Assembly: GCF_029760915.1 (NCBI RefSeq)
Contig: NZ_CP121685.1
Location: 718,001-782,000 of the forward strand
Direction: 5' to 3'
DNA: 64,000 nt
Origin: Olleya sp. YS
GTDB lineage: Bacteria; Bacteroidota; Bacteroidia; Flavobacteriales; Flavobacteriaceae
The notes below the pieces were generated by a model. The model was not told the origin of the DNA and did no database searches. It worked only from the letters and a program-made list of their open reading frames with translations. Of this stretch, positions 29,451 through 35,448 are shown one piece after another. Position 1 is the stretch's first letter. Each line of letters begins with the position of its first letter. Made by a program: the position numbers and the translations under genes.

Positions 29451-32345
29451 ATGTCAGATCAAAAACGCCTTTTTTTAGTTGATGCTTATGCACTTATATT
29501 TCGTGGTTATTACGCCTTTATAAAAAACCCACGAATCAATTCTAAAGGAGAAGACACCTCAGCTATTATGGGTTTTATGAACTCGTTATTAGACGTTATT
29601 AAACGTGAACGTCCAGACCATTTAGCGGTATGTTTTGATAAAGGTGGTAGTACAGATAGAGTCGAAATGTTTGAAGCTTATAAAGCAAATAGAGACGAAA
29701 CACCAGAAGGTATTCGTACCGCAATTCCGCATATCTGTAATATTCTGGAAGCCATGCATATTCCAATCATGGTAAAAGAAGGTTATGAAGCAGATGATGT
29801 CATTGGTACATTATCCCGTCAAGCGGAAAAAGAAGGTTATAAAGTCTTTATGGTCACTCCAGATAAAGATTTTGCGCAACTAGTTACCGAAAACATTTTT
29901 ATGTATAGACCTGTTTTTGGTGGTGGTTATGAAACTTGGGGCATCCCAGAAGTACAGAAAAAATTTGAAGTCACAGACCCAATGCAAGTCATTGACTTTT
30001 TGGGTATGATGGGAGATTCTAGCGATAATATTCCTGGACTTCCAGGTGTTGGAGAAAAAACTGCGAAGAAGTTTTTAGCAGCCTACGGAAGTATGGAAAA
30101 TCTTTTAGCTAATACACACGAGCTTAAAGGTAAAATGAAAGAAAAGATTGAGGCGAATGGTGAGTTGGGTTTACTATCTAAGAAATTAGCAACCATTATG
30201 TTAGATGTTCCTGTAACGTTTAACGCTAAAGATTTTGAACTCGATCATCCAGATGTTGAAAAAGTAAAAGAAATATTTCAAGAATTAGAGTTTAGACGAC
30301 TCACAGATAATTTTGTAAAAACCTTTACGTCTGGTGCAGAAGCTACTTCCAAATCAAATACTAATGGAACTGTCACTTCGAGCACTTCGTCTTCGCTCAG
30401 TACAGGCTCTGTCGAGAAGTCTTCAAATTCAACCTCAGTTTCAAGTTCAAATTCTAACGCAGGTGCAGGACAATTTTCATTGTTTGGAGCAGAACCTTCA
30501 TCTGCGACTGAAACCGTTTCAGAATACACTAGAAAAACCATTGAAACTACCTCGCATTTTTACCAAAGCGTTGCGCCAGGAATGGCAACCAAACTATTCA
30601 TTAAAAATTTAATGAATCAAACTAGCGTATGTTTTGATACGGAAACCACAGGACTTAATCCATTAACTGCTGAGTTGGTAGGTATTGCATTTTCTTGGGA
30701 AGTTGGTAAAGGCTTTTATTTACCTTTTCCAGAAGACAGACAAGAAGCACAATCTATTATCGAAGAATTACGATGTTTTTTTGAAAGTGAAACCATCGAA
30801 AAAGTAGGACAGAATTTAAAGTACGATATCAAAGTACTTGCAAAATATAATGTCGAAGTTAAAGGTAAACTGTTTGACACCATGTTAGCGCATTATTTAA
30901 TCAATCCTGACATGCGTCACAATATGGATGTGTTGGCAGAAACCTATTTAAACTACACACCAGTATCTATCACAGAACTGATTGGTAAAAAAGGGAAGAA
31001 TCAATTGTCTATGCGTGATGTTCCGTTAGAGAAACAAACCGAATACGCAGTAGAGGATGCAGATATCACACTTCAACTAAAAGAGCATTTTGAAAAAGAA
31101 TTAGGCGAAGCCAACACCCAAAAACTATTTAATGATATCGAAGTGCCTTTACTTCGTGTACTGGCTGCAATGGAACTAGAAGGTATTAATTTAGATGAAA
31201 CATTCTTAAATAGTTTGTCTGAAGAGTTGGATAACGACATCAAAACCTTAGAAGCTAAAATTTACGATGTTGCTGGTGAAGAATTTAATATCGCGTCACC
31301 AAAGCAATTGGGTATTATTTTATTCGAAAAATTAAAACTCGTCGATAAGCCTAAAAAAACAAAAACTGGTCAGTACAAAACAGGAGAAGATATTTTATCC
31401 TATTTAGCCAAAGACCATGAGATTATCCAAAACATTTTAGACTATCGTGGACTTGCAAAATTAAAAAGTACCTATGTAGATGCGTTACCGCTTCAAGTTG
31501 AACCTACAACTGGTCGTGTGCACACAGATTATATGCAAACCGTTGCTGCAACAGGACGATTAAGTAGTAATAATCCTAATTTACAGAACATCCCAATACG
31601 AACTGAACGTGGTCGTCAAGTGCGAAAAGCGTTTGTACCACGTAACGACGACTATATTTTACTAGCAGCCGATTACAGCCAAATAGAACTGCGTATTATT
31701 GCTGCATTAAGTAAAGAAGAAACCATGATTGAAGCCTTTAAAAATGGTGAAGATATTCATGCGTCGACTGCATCTAAAGTGTTTAATGTGCCTATTGAAG
31801 AGGTGACTAGAGAGCAACGTAGCAATGCCAAAACCGTAAACTTTGGGATTATTTATGGTGTGTCTGCTTTTGGACTAAGTAACCAAACCGATTTGTCTCG
31901 TAGCGAAGCCAAAGAGTTGATAGATACCTATTACGAAACCTACCCTAAGCTTAAAAAATACATGAGCGAGCAAGTCGATTTTGCGCGTGATAACGGTTAC
32001 GTAAAAACCGTTTTAGACAGACGTCGTTATTTAAAAGATATTAATAGTCGTAACGCTGTAGTGCGTGGAGCTGCAGAACGTAATGCGGTAAACGCACCAA
32101 TACAAGGTAGTGCTGCAGATATTATTAAAATTGCCATGATTAATATTTATAATAAGTTATCCCACGGAAATTTTAAAACTAAAATGCTCTTACAAGTGCA
32201 TGATGAATTGGTCTTTGATGTCTATAAACCTGAACTTGACGAAATGAAAACCTTGATTAAAACCGAAATGGAGAATGCTTTTAAAATGGAGGTTCCGTTA
32301 GATGTTGAAGTCGATACTGGTTTGAATTGGTTGGAGGCGCATTAA
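29451..32345 (+). CDS. polA: DNA polymerase I
   Basis: Repair and Okazaki-fragment polymerase of 964 residues. The N-terminal 5'-3' exonuclease domain (1-290) has LVDAYALIFRGYYAF and the acidic cluster EADDVIG. A Ser/Thr-rich linker (about 295-345) follows. The 3'-5' proofreading domain keeps its acidic residues (CFDTETTGL, about 395), and the polymerase domain has DYSQIELRI (motif A), RSNAKTVNFGIIYG (motif B) and VHDELVFDV (motif C). So all three activities should be present. Part of the linker is encoded by a copy of a dispersed palindromic repeat (30371-30423). Converges with the 32352 gene with only 6 bp between. Confidence 0.97.
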   Translation: MSDQKRLFLVDAYALIFRGYYAFIKNPRINSKGEDTSAIMGFMNSLLDVIKRERPDHLAVCFDKGGSTDRVEMFEAYKANRDETPEGIRTAIPHICNILEAMHIPIMVKEGYEADDVIGTLSRQAEKEGYKVFMVTPDKDFAQLVTENIFMYRPVFGGGYETWGIPEVQKKFEVTDPMQVIDFLGMMGDSSDNIPGLPGVGEKTAKKFLAAYGSMENLLANTHELKGKMKEKIEANGELGLLSKKLATIMLDVPVTFNAKDFELDHPDVEKVKEIFQELEFRRLTDNFVKTFTSGAEATSKSNTNGTVTSSTSSSLSTGSVEKSSNSTSVSSSNSNAGAGQFSLFGAEPSSATETVSEYTRKTIETTSHFYQSVAPGMATKLFIKNLMNQTSVCFDTETTGLNPLTAELVGIAFSWEVGKGFYLPFPEDRQEAQSIIEELRCFFESETIEKVGQNLKYDIKVLAKYNVEVKGKLFDTMLAHYLINPDMRHNMDVLAETYLNYTPVSITELIGKKGKNQLSMRDVPLEKQTEYAVEDADITLQLKEHFEKELGEANTQKLFNDIEVPLLRVLAAMELEGINLDETFLNSLSEELDNDIKTLEAKIYDVAGEEFNIASPKQLGIILFEKLKLVDKPKKTKTGQYKTGEDILSYLAKDHEIIQNILDYRGLAKLKSTYVDALPLQVEPTTGRVHTDYMQTVAATGRLSSNNPNLQNIPIRTERGRQVRKAFVPRNDDYILLAADYSQIELRIIAALSKEETMIEAFKNGEDIHASTASKVFNVPIEEVTREQRSNAKTVNFGIIYGVSAFGLSNQTDLSRSEAKELIDTYYETYPKLKKYMSEQVDFARDNGYVKTVLDRRRYLKDINSRNAVVRGAAERNAVNAPIQGSAADIIKIAMINIYNKLSHGNFKTKMLLQVHDELVFDVYKPELDEMKTLIKTEMENAFKMEVPLDVEVDTGLNWLEAH
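30371..30423. repeat. Dispersed-repeat copy inside the polA linker
   Basis: The stretch contains ACTTCGTCTTCGCTCAG, a 15 of 17 match to the core ACTTCGACTGCGCTCAG of the intergenic repeats at 14611 and 46694, flanked by CACTTCGAG and TCGAGAAGT. It is translated in frame as part of a Ser-rich linker (SSTSSSLSTGSVEKS). Confidence 0.6.
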
Positions 32346-32351
32346 CTAAAA

Positions 32352-32822
32352 TTATAAGTTTATTTGATATTGAATTCTTTTATTTTTAATTATTGATTCT
32401 AACTCATCCATTTTGAGCAAACAATAAGAAAAAGAATCAGGATGTAAAGATATAAAGCAAAACCTAAATCTATCTCCAACTAATTTTGCGAAATTAAATT
32501 CATTCTCTGTAGCTCCAAAGAAAAATCCTTTTGGGTTTTCTGGCAGAAACTTTTTAGTTGTCTTTATCTCAATGAATTGAATTTCATCTAAATGTGTCTC
32601 TATATAATCTTCTTTAAATTTAATTCCTTTCAATTTAGGTATATAAATCATATCAAAAGACTGTTTAAAACTATATGGTAATTCAAGGATATCAAGCAAA
32701 GTTTTTTTCATTGGTAAATCAATCTTAAAAAAACCTGTTTGCTTTTCTAACATATATCTAATTCCTTCTTTCTCTGTAACATTATTAGATAATGTCAATT
32801 TAAAACTATGAGCTCTTGACAT
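32352..32822 (-). CDS. PD-(D/E)XK nuclease-like protein (DUF3883-like), partner of XRE regulator
   Basis: Unnamed protein of 156 residues. Residues 54-130 read like a minimal restriction-endonuclease fold: FDMIYIP with Asp57, then FIEIKTT with Glu85 and Lys87 (the D...ExK pattern), then a helix/strand ATENEFNFAKLVGDRFRF much like DUF3883 domains. No signal peptide or membrane segment. Its start codon overlaps the stop of the XRE gene by one base (TAATG), so the two are translationally coupled. That arrangement recalls controller-endonuclease pairs of type II restriction systems, but no methyltransferase is near. Nuclease activity is inferred from motifs only; a nuclease-derived binding protein is equally possible. 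Confidence 0.6.
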   Translation of the reverse strand: MSRAHSFKLTLSNNVTEKEGIRYMLEKQTGFFKIDLPMKKTLLDILELPYSFKQSFDMIYIPKLKGIKFKEDYIETHLDEIQFIEIKTTKKFLPENPKGFFFGATENEFNFAKLVGDRFRFCFISLHPDSFSYCLLKMDELESIIKNKRIQYQINL

Positions 32823-33091
32823 TATTCTTCGGTTTTCAATTGATAATCATTAAAGCTTAGTTTTGGGTTCTGATTTTCAAAATTCAGCAATTCAGAAATC
32901 TCGATTTCAAATGCTTTTGAAAAGACTGCAATATTAGTTAGTGAAATATTACGTTCACCTCTTTCAATCATACCAATGTATGTTCTGTGAAAACCTGTTT
33001 TAAAAGATAGTTTTTCTTGACTCAGTTTATTCTCAAGTCTTAACTCTCGAATTCTTAGCCCAAATTCTTTAAGAAGGAATTTATTTACCAT
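32822..33091 (-). CDS. XRE-family regulator, restriction controller-like
   Basis: Small DNA-binding protein of 89 residues, nearly all one helix-turn-helix domain (about 10-68): LRIRELRLENKLSQEKLS, TGFHRTYIGMIERGERNISL, FSKAFEIEISELL. The HRTYIGMIERGERN recognition region is close to that of C (controller) proteins of restriction-modification systems. It is upstream of and overlaps by one base the nuclease-like gene. Two 13-bp dyads in inverted orientation at 33103-33140 lie just before its start, one of them inside its probable promoter, so it very likely represses itself and the divergent gene. Confidence 0.85.
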   Translation of the reverse strand: MVNKFLLKEFGLRIRELRLENKLSQEKLSFKTGFHRTYIGMIERGERNISLTNIAVFSKAFEIEISELLNFENQNPKLSFNDYQLKTEE

Positions 33092-33102
33092 TAATCGAAA
33101 CT

Positions 33103-33140
33103 ATACTTATTGTATGCAATAATCAACATACAATAAGTAT
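33103..33140. promoter_or_regulatory. Paired operators of the XRE regulator
   Basis: Perfect 14-bp inverted repeat: ATACTTATTGTATG (33103-33116), 10-bp spacer, CATACAATAAGTAT (33127-33140). Each arm is itself a dyad of form ATAC-N5-GTAT, so two dimers can bind. On the minus strand a promoter TTG-N20-TAGTTTCG overlaps the XRE-proximal arm; the other arm lies at the -33 region of the divergent gene. Confidence 0.8.
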
Positions 33141-33144
33141 CATT

Positions 33145-33175
33145 TCATTATATTTACTTTTAAAAAATATAATGA
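33145..33175. promoter_or_regulatory. Second inverted repeat over promoter and start of the zinc-ribbon gene
   Basis: TCATTATATTT (33145-33155) and AAATATAATGA (33165-33175) are perfect reverse complements separated by 9 bp. The left arm includes the -7-like TATATTTA (33149-33156); the right arm includes the ATG at 33172. Confidence 0.65.
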
Positions 33176-33492
33176 TTTGGTATGCAAGGAAATCTAGCGA
33201 TGATGGAAAGGGAATGAATAAAGGAGTTCTTTTTTATGAAGGTGAACATTATTCAAGGACAGAAGAACATGCAAAAAAATATGTAGAATCTCTAGGTTTA
33301 GTTTGGGAGGAAGAACTTAAGACTATCAACACAAAAGATGAATGGTTCTACTTTACTGATTGGGAAGAGCTAGATGAAGAAGAATTTTATGATTTTGAAG
33401 GTAACACATATAAAATATGTCATAACTGCAAAGGTGTAGTTAGAGTATTAACTGAATTAAATCTTTGCAAAAAATGTGGAATTTATACTTAA
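33172..33492 (+). CDS. Small acidic protein with C-terminal zinc ribbon
   Basis: Unrecognised protein of 106 residues, divergent from the XRE gene and sharing its control region. The first 80 residues are rich in acidic and aromatic residues (EWFYFTDWEELDEEEFYDF). The C-terminus has C83-x2-C86-x12-C99-x2-C102, a zinc-ribbon spacing. It could be a DNA-mimic-like inhibitor because of its charge, or simply a small regulator; neither is shown. It ends 3 bp from the stop of the converging ygiQ gene, so the cassette is tightly packed. The ATG lies inside a perfect inverted repeat. Confidence 0.65.
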   Translation: MIWYARKSSDDGKGMNKGVLFYEGEHYSRTEEHAKKYVESLGLVWEEELKTINTKDEWFYFTDWEELDEEEFYDFEGNTYKICHNCKGVVRVLTELNLCKKCGIYT

Positions 33493-33495
33493 AAT

Positions 33496-35448
33496 CTAAC
33501 GTCTCTTCTTCCTAGACTTATACTTAACCTTCTGCTTCCTTTGATTAAAAGGTACAGCATCATTAAACGTGTCTTTGGCTTCACCATTAGGCTTGTTTTT
33601 ACGCCATTTTTCTTTCTTTTCTGGTAAGAGTACTTTTAGTAAATCTTGACGACCAACTTTATTCAACGTCTTTTTTATCCACGCTTTGTTTTCGTCTTTA
33701 TACCAAAAGAAAAAACGGTGTTGCTCGTCTTTTTCTTTTCGGGTTTTTGGCGTGTTTACTTTTTTAAGCGTGTAAGGATGGTAACCACTATAGTAAATAA
33801 CAGTCGCTACTGTCATTGGTGTTGGAGTAAACCCTTGTACTTGCTCTAACTGGAAACCCATATCTTTAGTTTCGGCAGCGAGGTTTGCCATATCTTCAAC
33901 TTCGCAAGCTGGATGATTAGAAATAAAATAGGGTATTAATTGAAGCTTTAAATTCTTCTTGATATTAATCTTATCAAAACGCTCTTTAAACTTATGGAAG
34001 TACGAGAACGACGGTTTCCGCATTAATTTTAAAACAGGATCACTCGTGTGTTCTGGCGCGACTTTTAAGCGTCCAGAAACGTGCTTGGTCATCACTTCTT
34101 CGGTATAAGCATCCAACTCTTTTGGGTCTGCATTTTTATTAAATTCTGGCACTAACATATCATGTCTAATTCCAGAACCTATAAATGATTTTTTTACTTT
34201 AGGATGACTGTCTACCGCTTGATATAATTCGGTTAACGGTTTATGAGACGTATCTAAATTACTACAAATTACTGGCGAAATACAACTAGGTGCCACACAC
34301 TTATCACAGATAGCTTGCACTTTACCTTTCATTTGATACATATTAGCACTTGGTCCACCAATGTCGCTTAAATAGCCTTTAAAGTCTGGCATATTGGCAA
34401 CTTTATCAACTTCTTTTAAAATCGATTCTTTACTACGACTTGCTATAAATTTTCCTTGATGCGCAGATATGGTACAAAAGCTACAACCACCAAAACAACC
34501 TCTGTGAATATTTATAGAAGTCTTAATCATCTCATAAGCTGGTATTGGTCCACGCTTATTGTATTTTGGATGTGGTAATCGTGTGTAAGGCAAATCAAAA
34601 GACGCATCAATCTCTGCTTCCGTCATGGTTGGATATGGCGGATTAATCATCAACGTCTTATTACCAACTTTCTGAAAAATTCGTCTTGCTGCCAACTTAT
34701 TAGACTCTTGCTCTATGACTTTAAAGTTAGAGGCGTATTTTTTCTTGTCTTTTAAACAAACTTCGTGTGATGCGATTTCGACATCTTCCCAATTACTATT
34801 CTTCGGAATTTTTTCATCTTTATCCATCAACACAGCTGTTTGCAATACCGTGTTAATACTATTAAAAGGAACACCTTTCTCTAACAAACGCACTATTTCA
34901 CGTAGAGGTTGCTCTCCCATTCCATACACCAGCATATCTGCTTTAGAAGTCTCTAAAATAGTTGGCATCAATTTATCACTCCAATAATCGTAATGCGTAA
35001 CACGACGAAGCGAACCTTCAATTCCACCAATTAAAACAGGTGTGTCTGGCCATTTTTCTTTTAAGATATTACTATAAACTGTTGAGGCATAATCTGGTCT
35101 AAAACCAATATCTCCATTTGGAGTATAGGCATCTTTATCGCGACGTTTTTTGTTAGCATTATAATTGCTAATCATTGGATCCATGCAACCACCAGTAACT
35201 CCAAAAAACAATCTTGGTTTACCTAGTTTGACAAAATCCTGAAGATTATCATTGACATTGGGTTGAGGAACAATAGCTACACGTAAACCCATACTTTCTA
35301 ACAAACGACCAATAACCGCAGGACCAAACGTAGGATGATCCACATAGGCATCACCACTAAATAGGATGACGTCTAGTGTGTCCCAACCGCGAATTTTCAC
35401 CTCTTTGTTTGTGGTAGGTAACCAGTCTGACAGTTTAAGTTCTTGCAT
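33496..35448 (-). CDS. ygiQ: YgiQ family radical SAM protein
   Basis: Radical S-adenosylmethionine protein of 650 residues. The N-terminal part is a B12-binding-like fold (DVILFSGDAYVDHPTFGPAVI, first 20 residues shown in part) and the radical SAM core has CFGGCSFC (CxxxCxxC, about residue 316) after NIHRG. The C-terminal end is strongly basic (KQKVKYKSRKKRR). YgiQ proteins are widely conserved and their reaction is still not known to me; a biosynthetic or RNA-modifying role is guessed from the basic tail. The length is usual for the family. Monocistronic, converging with the zinc-ribbon gene. Confidence 0.92.
   Translation of the reverse strand: MQELKLSDWLPTTNKEVKIRGWDTLDVILFSGDAYVDHPTFGPAVIGRLLESMGLRVAIVPQPNVNDNLQDFVKLGKPRLFFGVTGGCMDPMISNYNANKKRRDKDAYTPNGDIGFRPDYASTVYSNILKEKWPDTPVLIGGIEGSLRRVTHYDYWSDKLMPTILETSKADMLVYGMGEQPLREIVRLLEKGVPFNSINTVLQTAVLMDKDEKIPKNSNWEDVEIASHEVCLKDKKKYASNFKVIEQESNKLAARRIFQKVGNKTLMINPPYPTMTEAEIDASFDLPYTRLPHPKYNKRGPIPAYEMIKTSINIHRGCFGGCSFCTISAHQGKFIASRSKESILKEVDKVANMPDFKGYLSDIGGPSANMYQMKGKVQAICDKCVAPSCISPVICSNLDTSHKPLTELYQAVDSHPKVKKSFIGSGIRHDMLVPEFNKNADPKELDAYTEEVMTKHVSGRLKVAPEHTSDPVLKLMRKPSFSYFHKFKERFDKINIKKNLKLQLIPYFISNHPACEVEDMANLAAETKDMGFQLEQVQGFTPTPMTVATVIYYSGYHPYTLKKVNTPKTRKEKDEQHRFFFWYKDENKAWIKKTLNKVGRQDLLKVLLPEKKEKWRKNKPNGEAKDTFNDAVPFNQRKQKVKYKSRKKRR

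Follow-up and report, generated by a model that had tools for sequence, protein, structure and literature searches.

The analysed window is a 64,000-nucleotide stretch of DNA from Olleya sp. YS in which three small genes are packed between polA (29451–32345, forward strand) and ygiQ (33496–35448, reverse strand), the left and right borders of an integration hotspot. Specifically, nuc (32352–32822, reverse strand) encodes a 156-residue predicted PD-(D/E)XK nuclease with E17, D57 and E85-x-K87, an assignment that draws on conservation, fold comparison and dN/dS; xre (32822–33091, reverse strand) encodes an 89-residue protein that profile matches place among the controller (C) proteins; and zr (33172–33492, forward strand), divergent from xre, encodes a 106-residue acidic zinc-ribbon protein that appears to be an optional passenger. 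The fit is tight, with 6 bp between the end of polA at 32345 and nuc and 3 bp between zr and the 3' end of ygiQ at 33496. Additionally, xre and nuc share a single base, the C-R overlap described in the initial annotation, whose gene coordinates, gap lengths and residue numbers for D57, E85 and K87 all proved correct. A copy at the same site in Flaviramulus basaltis (L006 and L022, one genome, G805, counted once) is 89% (xre), 91% (nuc) and 86% (zr) identical to that of the window, with dN/dS ratios of 0.115, 0.066 and 0.074, respectively, which are rough values, as are all the ratios given here, since they were obtained by the Nei-Gojobori method with dS often above 1. Together, these identities and ratios indicate that the three small open reading frames are real genes.

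The C-like nature proposed for the regulator is borne out by profile comparisons. The XRE protein matches the PADLOC 'Control_protein' models with a best E value of 1.3e-21, as do 8 of 8 aligned homologues, and a profile of these eight homologues retrieves C.BclI (E 8.6e-18), C.AhdI (3.9e-17) and an 'R-M controller protein' (3clc, 1.1e-10) from the PDB. On this evidence, xre encodes a C protein of the controller family. The 80-bp gap between xre and zr furthermore contains a feature absent from the initial annotation, namely a perfect 14-bp inverted repeat with a 10-nt spacer (arms 33103–33116 and 33127–33140), a length reached by none of 3000 dinucleotide shuffles. Both arms hold a smaller palindrome, ATAC-N5-GTAT, so that the repeat can be read as a pair of operators spaced by 12 nt: a proximal half ('OR' by analogy, 33103–33115), in which ATACAATnnGTAT on the xre strand is kept in 11 of 13 loci, and a distal half ('OL' by analogy, 33128–33140), in which ATTGT is kept in 13 and GATAC in 12 of 13. 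Between the halves, a TTG on the reverse strand (33124–33126) is a possible -33 element, embedded in a GTTGA that recurs in 12 of 13 loci, and TAGTTTCG (33096–33103, reverse strand) resembles a -7-type promoter box of xre-nuc. Beside the distal operator, TATATTTA (33149–33156, forward strand; TATATTTG in F. basaltis) may tentatively be read as a -7-like box of zr. The box of xre-nuc corresponds to TAnnTTTG, the promoter consensus of Bacteroidota. Because the ATG of xre lies only 4 nt past its -7-type box, the xre-nuc transcript would be near-leaderless.

This arrangement is conserved. All 13 carriers in the locus alignment have a C-box-like operator ahead of xre, with both halves present in 11 and the xre-side half lost in L011 and L007. 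The distance from the beginning of the C box to the xre start is 50–51 nt in 12 of 13 loci and 132 nt in L008, whose xre start codon may be misassigned, and in most of the 13 a -7-like box follows the C box, with the start codon a few bases further on. As such, the region upstream of xre has the anatomy of a C box combined with what would function as a Bacteroidota-type promoter. A search of the window's genome with the C-box pattern, allowing up to two mismatches, returned five matches, one of them exact, versus six for the reversed control; since the sole exact match is the site before xre, regulation by xre looks local. Matches to the same pattern in two viral contigs were set aside as chance, as they lie, by eye, within or between phage structural genes and lack xre-nuc.

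The layout closely recalls C-controlled type II restriction-modification (R-M) systems such as PvuII, Esp1396I, AhdI and Csp231I. The regulator belongs to the same protein family, the C gene lies upstream of and overlaps the R gene, which by position could be cotranscribed, and two symmetric operators in the putative C promoter go together with a message that is likely near-leaderless; in C systems the promoter is commonly flanked by operators and the message near-leaderless (PMC4824078). The same paper gives the Csp231I operators as CTAAG-n5-CTTAG, 18 nt apart, and the PvuII-like ones as GACT-tat-AGTC, whereas the xre operator, ATAC-n5-GTAT twice, 12 nt apart, falls outside both classes. Two further differences are that the R protein here belongs to an unclassified 156-residue family and that xre-nuc has no linked methyltransferase. 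By analogy, xre-nuc would thus work like a C-controlled restriction module without being a member of the class, since the linked methyltransferase is missing.

The nuclease assignment rests first on its residues. E17, D57, E85 and K87 are invariant in the 13 aligned rows of the nuc family, one of which ends at a contig end after residue 89, and D57, E85 and K87 remain invariant in a seven-row set that includes two alphaproteobacterial relatives with 28% and 24% identity; E17 is not kept in these Agrobacterium and Sphingomonas plasmid relatives. The triad singled out in the initial annotation is therefore conserved among homologues, and nuc carries, as judged from the alignments, the D...(D/E)xK active site of the PD-(D/E)XK superfamily. 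Two AlphaFold models agree with each other (pLDDT 74.1 and 74.6, pTM 0.73), and their VIA-align comparisons are headed mostly by PD-(D/E)XK enzymes, the fold that the residues predict, at Z scores all below 8, a range that the tool describes as possibly just a common arrangement. Among the matches listed are SPARDA (Z 7.8, 112 residues aligned, rmsd 5.3), the BisI-family enzymes NhoI (Z 7.0, 92, 3.6) and Eco15I (Z 5.9, 97, 4.6), Hjc (Z 6.7, 94, 3.7), RecU (Z 6.0, 102, 4.3), I-Ssp6803I (Z 5.9, 99, 4.1), and HinP1I, EcoRV and PvuII (Z 4.7, 4.5 and 4.2); NhoI and Eco15I are listed in one comparison and are not among the 50 entries listed in the other. tRNA-splicing endonucleases and viral cap-snatching nucleases occur in the same lists as weaker matches. 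Foldseek gave no match at E<=0.001; its five best rows are human Rep15 complexes, with Hjc next. Searching the PDB with a nuc profile retrieved no relative, WD-repeat proteins scoring best at E 0.3, and none of the PADLOC families matches nuc. Of the outcomes that would have refuted the proposed PD-(D/E)XK likeness, a lack of conservation of D57/E85/K87 was not observed, and the fold comparison did not point clearly to an unrelated fold either, though its scores are middling.

A DUF3883-like segment had also been proposed, and it persists only as a weak resemblance: the window's nuc scores 18.2 bits against Pfam NOV_C (PF13020), under the gathering cut-off of 22.1 bits, and E<=10 is reached by 11 of the 13 family members, 2.2e-4 being the best value. 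The likeness to NOV_C/DUF3883 proteins lies around E85-x-K87 and an FFF.AT.NE segment; the difference, beyond the sub-cut-off score, is that nuc is a stand-alone protein of 156 residues, while the NOV_C/DUF3883 domain is usually found terminally in a large protein. The FokI cleavage domain is matched weakly by 4 of 13 rows (best E 8.7e-3). nuc, in turn, is under purifying selection, with dN/dS of 0.013–0.039 in the nine pairs shown among L009, L023, L024, L025 and L026, and of 0.013–0.244 over the 33 of 66 pairs that are unsaturated.

Carriers of nuc comprise 13 distinct genomes, all of them Bacteroidota (G000, G805, G945, G1063, G954, G810, G1007, G191, G112, G034, G358 and L007, a Flavipsychrobacter MAG) except for one Acidobacteria MAG (L008). 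They come from 395 genomes of the class (five carriers), a phylum sample of 395 (one, the window's own), 349 family genomes (seven full-length copies), five genomes of the order of G112 (one) and three loci in named genomes, one of which is the same F. basaltis. Three weak matches (E 3.1e-4 to 7.3e-4) are uncounted, two with internal stops and the third within a 947-residue frame. In all 13 carriers xre lies directly upstream of nuc, including L011 and L008, where the automatic gene picker had omitted it and tblastn located it. Pattern scans of viral contigs (4 and 72 stretches) and of phage records yielded no nuc relative, and likewise P0001 in phages.

Far less constant is zr. Its CxxC...CxxC pattern is visible in the sequence, with a sub-threshold match to DZR_2, and its 22 D/E versus 14 K/R residues agree with the acidic zinc-ribbon protein first described. 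Within the flanks examined, it accompanies xre-nuc in two of the 13 carriers, and it occurs in one of 60 relatives whose whole genomes were searched, namely the window's own. The three-gene cassette of the initial annotation is not upheld by these counts, and the conserved unit appears to be the two genes xre-nuc. The same survey bears on a toxin-antitoxin-like unit, in which nuc would be a toxin checked by a small neighbour, zr here and other small genes elsewhere. Compatible with such a unit are the acidity of zr, its purifying selection between the window and F. basaltis, and the presence of a small gene convergent with nuc in 8 of 12 loci where the 3' flank could be read. These convergent genes form two families, neither of them zr: small79 in L023, L025, L026, L010 and L007, and small97 in L009, L027 and L024. 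However, the small97 of L024 has stop codons next to an intact nuc, L011 and L008 match neither family, and none of zr, small79 and small97 stands next to nuc in all carriers. Because zr is present in so few carriers, it does not seem to be a general antitoxin, and the restraint by the small acidic protein that had been envisaged loses its footing on the same counts and on the broken small97. A toxin-antitoxin-like unit is therefore very improbable.

The genomic setting suggests mobility. Nine relatives (L081–L089), eight from the genus and one from the family, were surveyed out of 29 genomes with a polA match; other genes occupy the polA-ygiQ gap in every case, and in eight they include genes of R-M or type IV systems. 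L081 has a type IV methyl-directed enzyme (PADLOC E 2.3e-224), L088 has McrC-like PD-(D/E)XK genes, and C5 methyltransferase genes were identified by profile in L082, L084, L085, L086 and L087 and, in L083, by 99.5% identity to that of L084; in L089 no defence gene was recognised. Since eight of nine relatives hold such genes at this site, polA-ygiQ is an integration and defence hotspot of the genus with xre-nuc as one occupant, in keeping with the inserted, mobile defence-type unit first suspected.

Elsewhere the cassette likewise sits among R-M genes, most of its neighbours having been identified by eye and not by profile. In three loci (L009, L023 and L027) the cassette is flanked by a C5 methyltransferase gene on one side and a MutH-type restriction enzyme (PF02976, E 3.9e-41), presumably Sau3AI-like, on the other. 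The C5 gene is broken in all three, frameshifted and truncated in L009 and truncated in L023 and L027, with L009 and L023 sharing one break, so that at most two independent events are involved. Of the MutH-type gene, L009 retains the complete frame, L023 is missing the catalytic N-terminal part and L027 has a frameshifted copy; just 56–82 C-terminal residues of it remain in L024 and L025. Intact homologues of the broken C5 gene occur in two cassette-free relatives, L083 and L084. In L084 (2805–3850), the intact homologue, 412 residues long, precedes a frame in which a GIY-YIG-like segment is recognisable by eye, which would mean that this M family pairs with different R types. Repeats of about 90 nt with GGATTTCCACTGCAATCCCTAACGC-like ends, which we take to be REP-like, flank the cassette and lie at the C5 gene break in L009, L023 and L027. 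Broken R-M genes beside the cassette in several loci might suggest a decaying R-M remnant in which nuc is no longer a working nuclease. Such decay is barely plausible given that nuc, xre and the C box are intact while their neighbours decay, that the dN/dS of nuc is low and that its catalytic residues are invariant. Rather, the low dN/dS argues that nuc is maintained while neighbouring R-M genes and one small97 are being lost.

The lack of a linked methyltransferase, remarked on from the start, holds in the window and largely beyond it. An intact methyltransferase adjoins the cassette in one locus only, L026, where a D12 gene is divergent from xre. As the missing partner, this gene was rejected and judged resident: the same D12-DUF4254-GT9 order is found in G1007 with another gene in front, and about ten residues left in L026 resemble, by eye, the end of that preceding gene. 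Genome-wide, D12 matches occur in seven of the 13 carriers, C5 in seven and N6_N4 in five; nine carriers have at least one of the three, and none of the three families is common to all. G805, G1063, G954 and G358, which are 100, 100, 99 and 94% complete, have no match to the three families searched, C5, D12 and N6_N4. For N6_Mtase-like genes, a crude motif scan of 400 kb each gave no frame in G954 and one in G805. The sole match in G191, for the three searched families, is the broken C5 gene beside the cassette, and the window's genome has one C5 and one D12-type gene far off (C1 2.67 and 2.13 Mb versus 0.75 Mb). In a 400-kb sample of G954 (10% of the genome), all 4096 6-mers occur, so an unprotected ordinary cutter of 4–6 bp would find targets and, if active, should be lethal; the corresponding sample of G805 lacks six 6-mers. 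Hosts without the tested methyltransferases, together with the 6-mers present, suggest that nuc has no need of a classical partner or lacks one. GATC was considered as a target and dropped as uninformative: it is avoided in most carriers, including G954 (354 seen versus 1001 expected), and equally in nine pooled non-carriers (0.53).

These data also weigh on a conventional type II enzyme protected in trans, whereby nuc would cut a short unmodified site covered by a distant host methyltransferase. There is precedent, as Ershova et al. (2012, PMC3488263) report 272 solitary restriction enzymes, of which 57 had a predicted distant methyltransferase, 99 were likely fragments and 116 were unexplained; solitary enzymes are also reported in PMC4176335, which puts forward that recent decay of complete systems is not the origin of most solitary R-M genes. 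The nine carriers with at least one methyltransferase match and the D12 gene of L026 point the same way, as do distant relatives of nuc that adjoin methyltransferases. The Agrobacterium plasmid relative follows an N6_N4 methyltransferase and a Res-like helicase, and the Sphingomonas one follows an Eco57I-type methyltransferase and a 304-residue unknown protein; from these neighbours, it seems that the wider nuc family can belong to methyltransferase-bearing systems. On the other side stand the four carriers without any of the three families, the lack of a family shared by all, the residency of the L026 gene, and the nuc proteins of L024 and L025, which are 91% identical and so probably share a specificity, although none of the three families was matched in G1063 and G954, the genomes they come from. 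Protection in trans is accordingly considered unlikely.

The available data are best explained by a compact, horizontally spreading cassette that moves between distant bacteria. The order of the genes, the place of xre among the C proteins, the layout and conservation of the C box, the catalytic residues, the purifying selection and the hotspot location can be read from the DNA, and the explanation would add to them promoter function, DNA cleavage, a role in defence, methyltransferase independence and a type of target. Specifically, we consider it somewhat probable that xre-nuc is a C-controlled, methyltransferase-independent and possibly modification-dependent restriction cassette. If it behaves as C systems do, weak basal transcription would yield C protein, which would activate from the distal operator and, once bound at both operators, repress its own promoter; nuc, on the same transcript, would rise late and stay at a capped level. 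The nuclease itself would be a small PD-(D/E)XK DNase attacking incoming DNA. Since no cognate methyltransferase travels along and some hosts lack the three tested families, it would most likely spare unmodified host sites altogether, likeliest by requiring a modified base in the manner of type IIM/IV enzymes, with recognition of a structure or of a long rare site as further possibilities. Why such an enzyme should be delayed by a C protein could be explained in one of three ways: low steady levels may matter, target methylation in a new host may first have to be lost or diluted, or the cassette may descend from a complete R-M system whose switch it has retained.

Recognition of a structure or an end leads to another reading, in which nuc would serve DNA repair or the competition between mobile elements, as a Hjc- or RecU-like enzyme might, and not restriction. 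Hjc and RecU are among its fold matches, and a nuclease of this kind would need no methyltransferase. It is nevertheless quite improbable in view of the restriction contexts in which the cassette sits and of its C-box control and C-R overlap, a hallmark of restriction systems (PMC4824078, PMC3850674).

A modification-dependent nuclease, as in the preferred restriction cassette, would explain both the methyltransferase-free hosts and the adjacent C5 genes, which are broken in three of three loci that have one; the breaks may equally be attributed to the repeats that lie at them. A more specific version is that a C-timed, modification-dependent cassette swaps into R-M loci, replacing or breaking the resident R gene, much as DpnI and DpnII take each other's place, and that the neighbouring C5 methyltransferase then disappears, since DNA methylated by it would expose the host to attack. 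We regard this version as doubtful, mainly because the repeat at the C5 break offers a simpler cause.

Two groups of enzymes invite comparison with the proposed restriction cassette. Solitary restriction endonucleases (PMC3488263) resemble it in having an R gene with no usable M gene nearby, sometimes beside corrupted M genes; they were, however, found as relatives of enzymes from annotated R-M systems, whereas here the M-less C-R pair itself appears as the conserved, spreading unit. Type IIM/IV enzymes such as DpnI and the BisI family need no protective methyltransferase (PMC3874153, PMC11347163), and NhoI and Eco15I are listed in one of the two fold comparisons of nuc; no sequence match links them to nuc, whose modification dependence is a proposal. 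The terms 'C protein' and 'controller' are absent from the text of PMC3488263, 'C protein' does not occur in PMC3874153, and a literature search found no title or abstract opening that describes a methyltransferase-less C-R pair. The novelty lies in a C-R pair that is conserved and travels as a unit, in the class of its operators and in the nuclease family.

These findings bear on how C proteins are understood. Usually they are explained by the need for methyltransferase before endonuclease; a spreading C-R pair without M would mean that C control also serves enzymes harmless to unmodified host DNA, or that the host is protected in an unknown way. Additionally, nuc would add a new compact family of restriction enzymes and the site before xre a new C-box class, and polA-ygiQ is marked as a place to find further defence genes in the group.

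Several loci contain further features of note. The distant plasmid relatives of nuc lie at L051 4809–5303 (Agrobacterium vitis) and L161 2388–2876 (Sphingomonas). In L082 (850–3057), a 735-residue frame has matches to a C5 methyltransferase as well as to an integrase arm-binding domain. Finally, the window's genome holds a trio (L037 3951–7786, C1 ~2.668–2.672 Mb) of a C5 methyltransferase gene, a 707-residue ATPase-like gene and a 198-residue receiver-like gene (by eye), which resembles one in L087.
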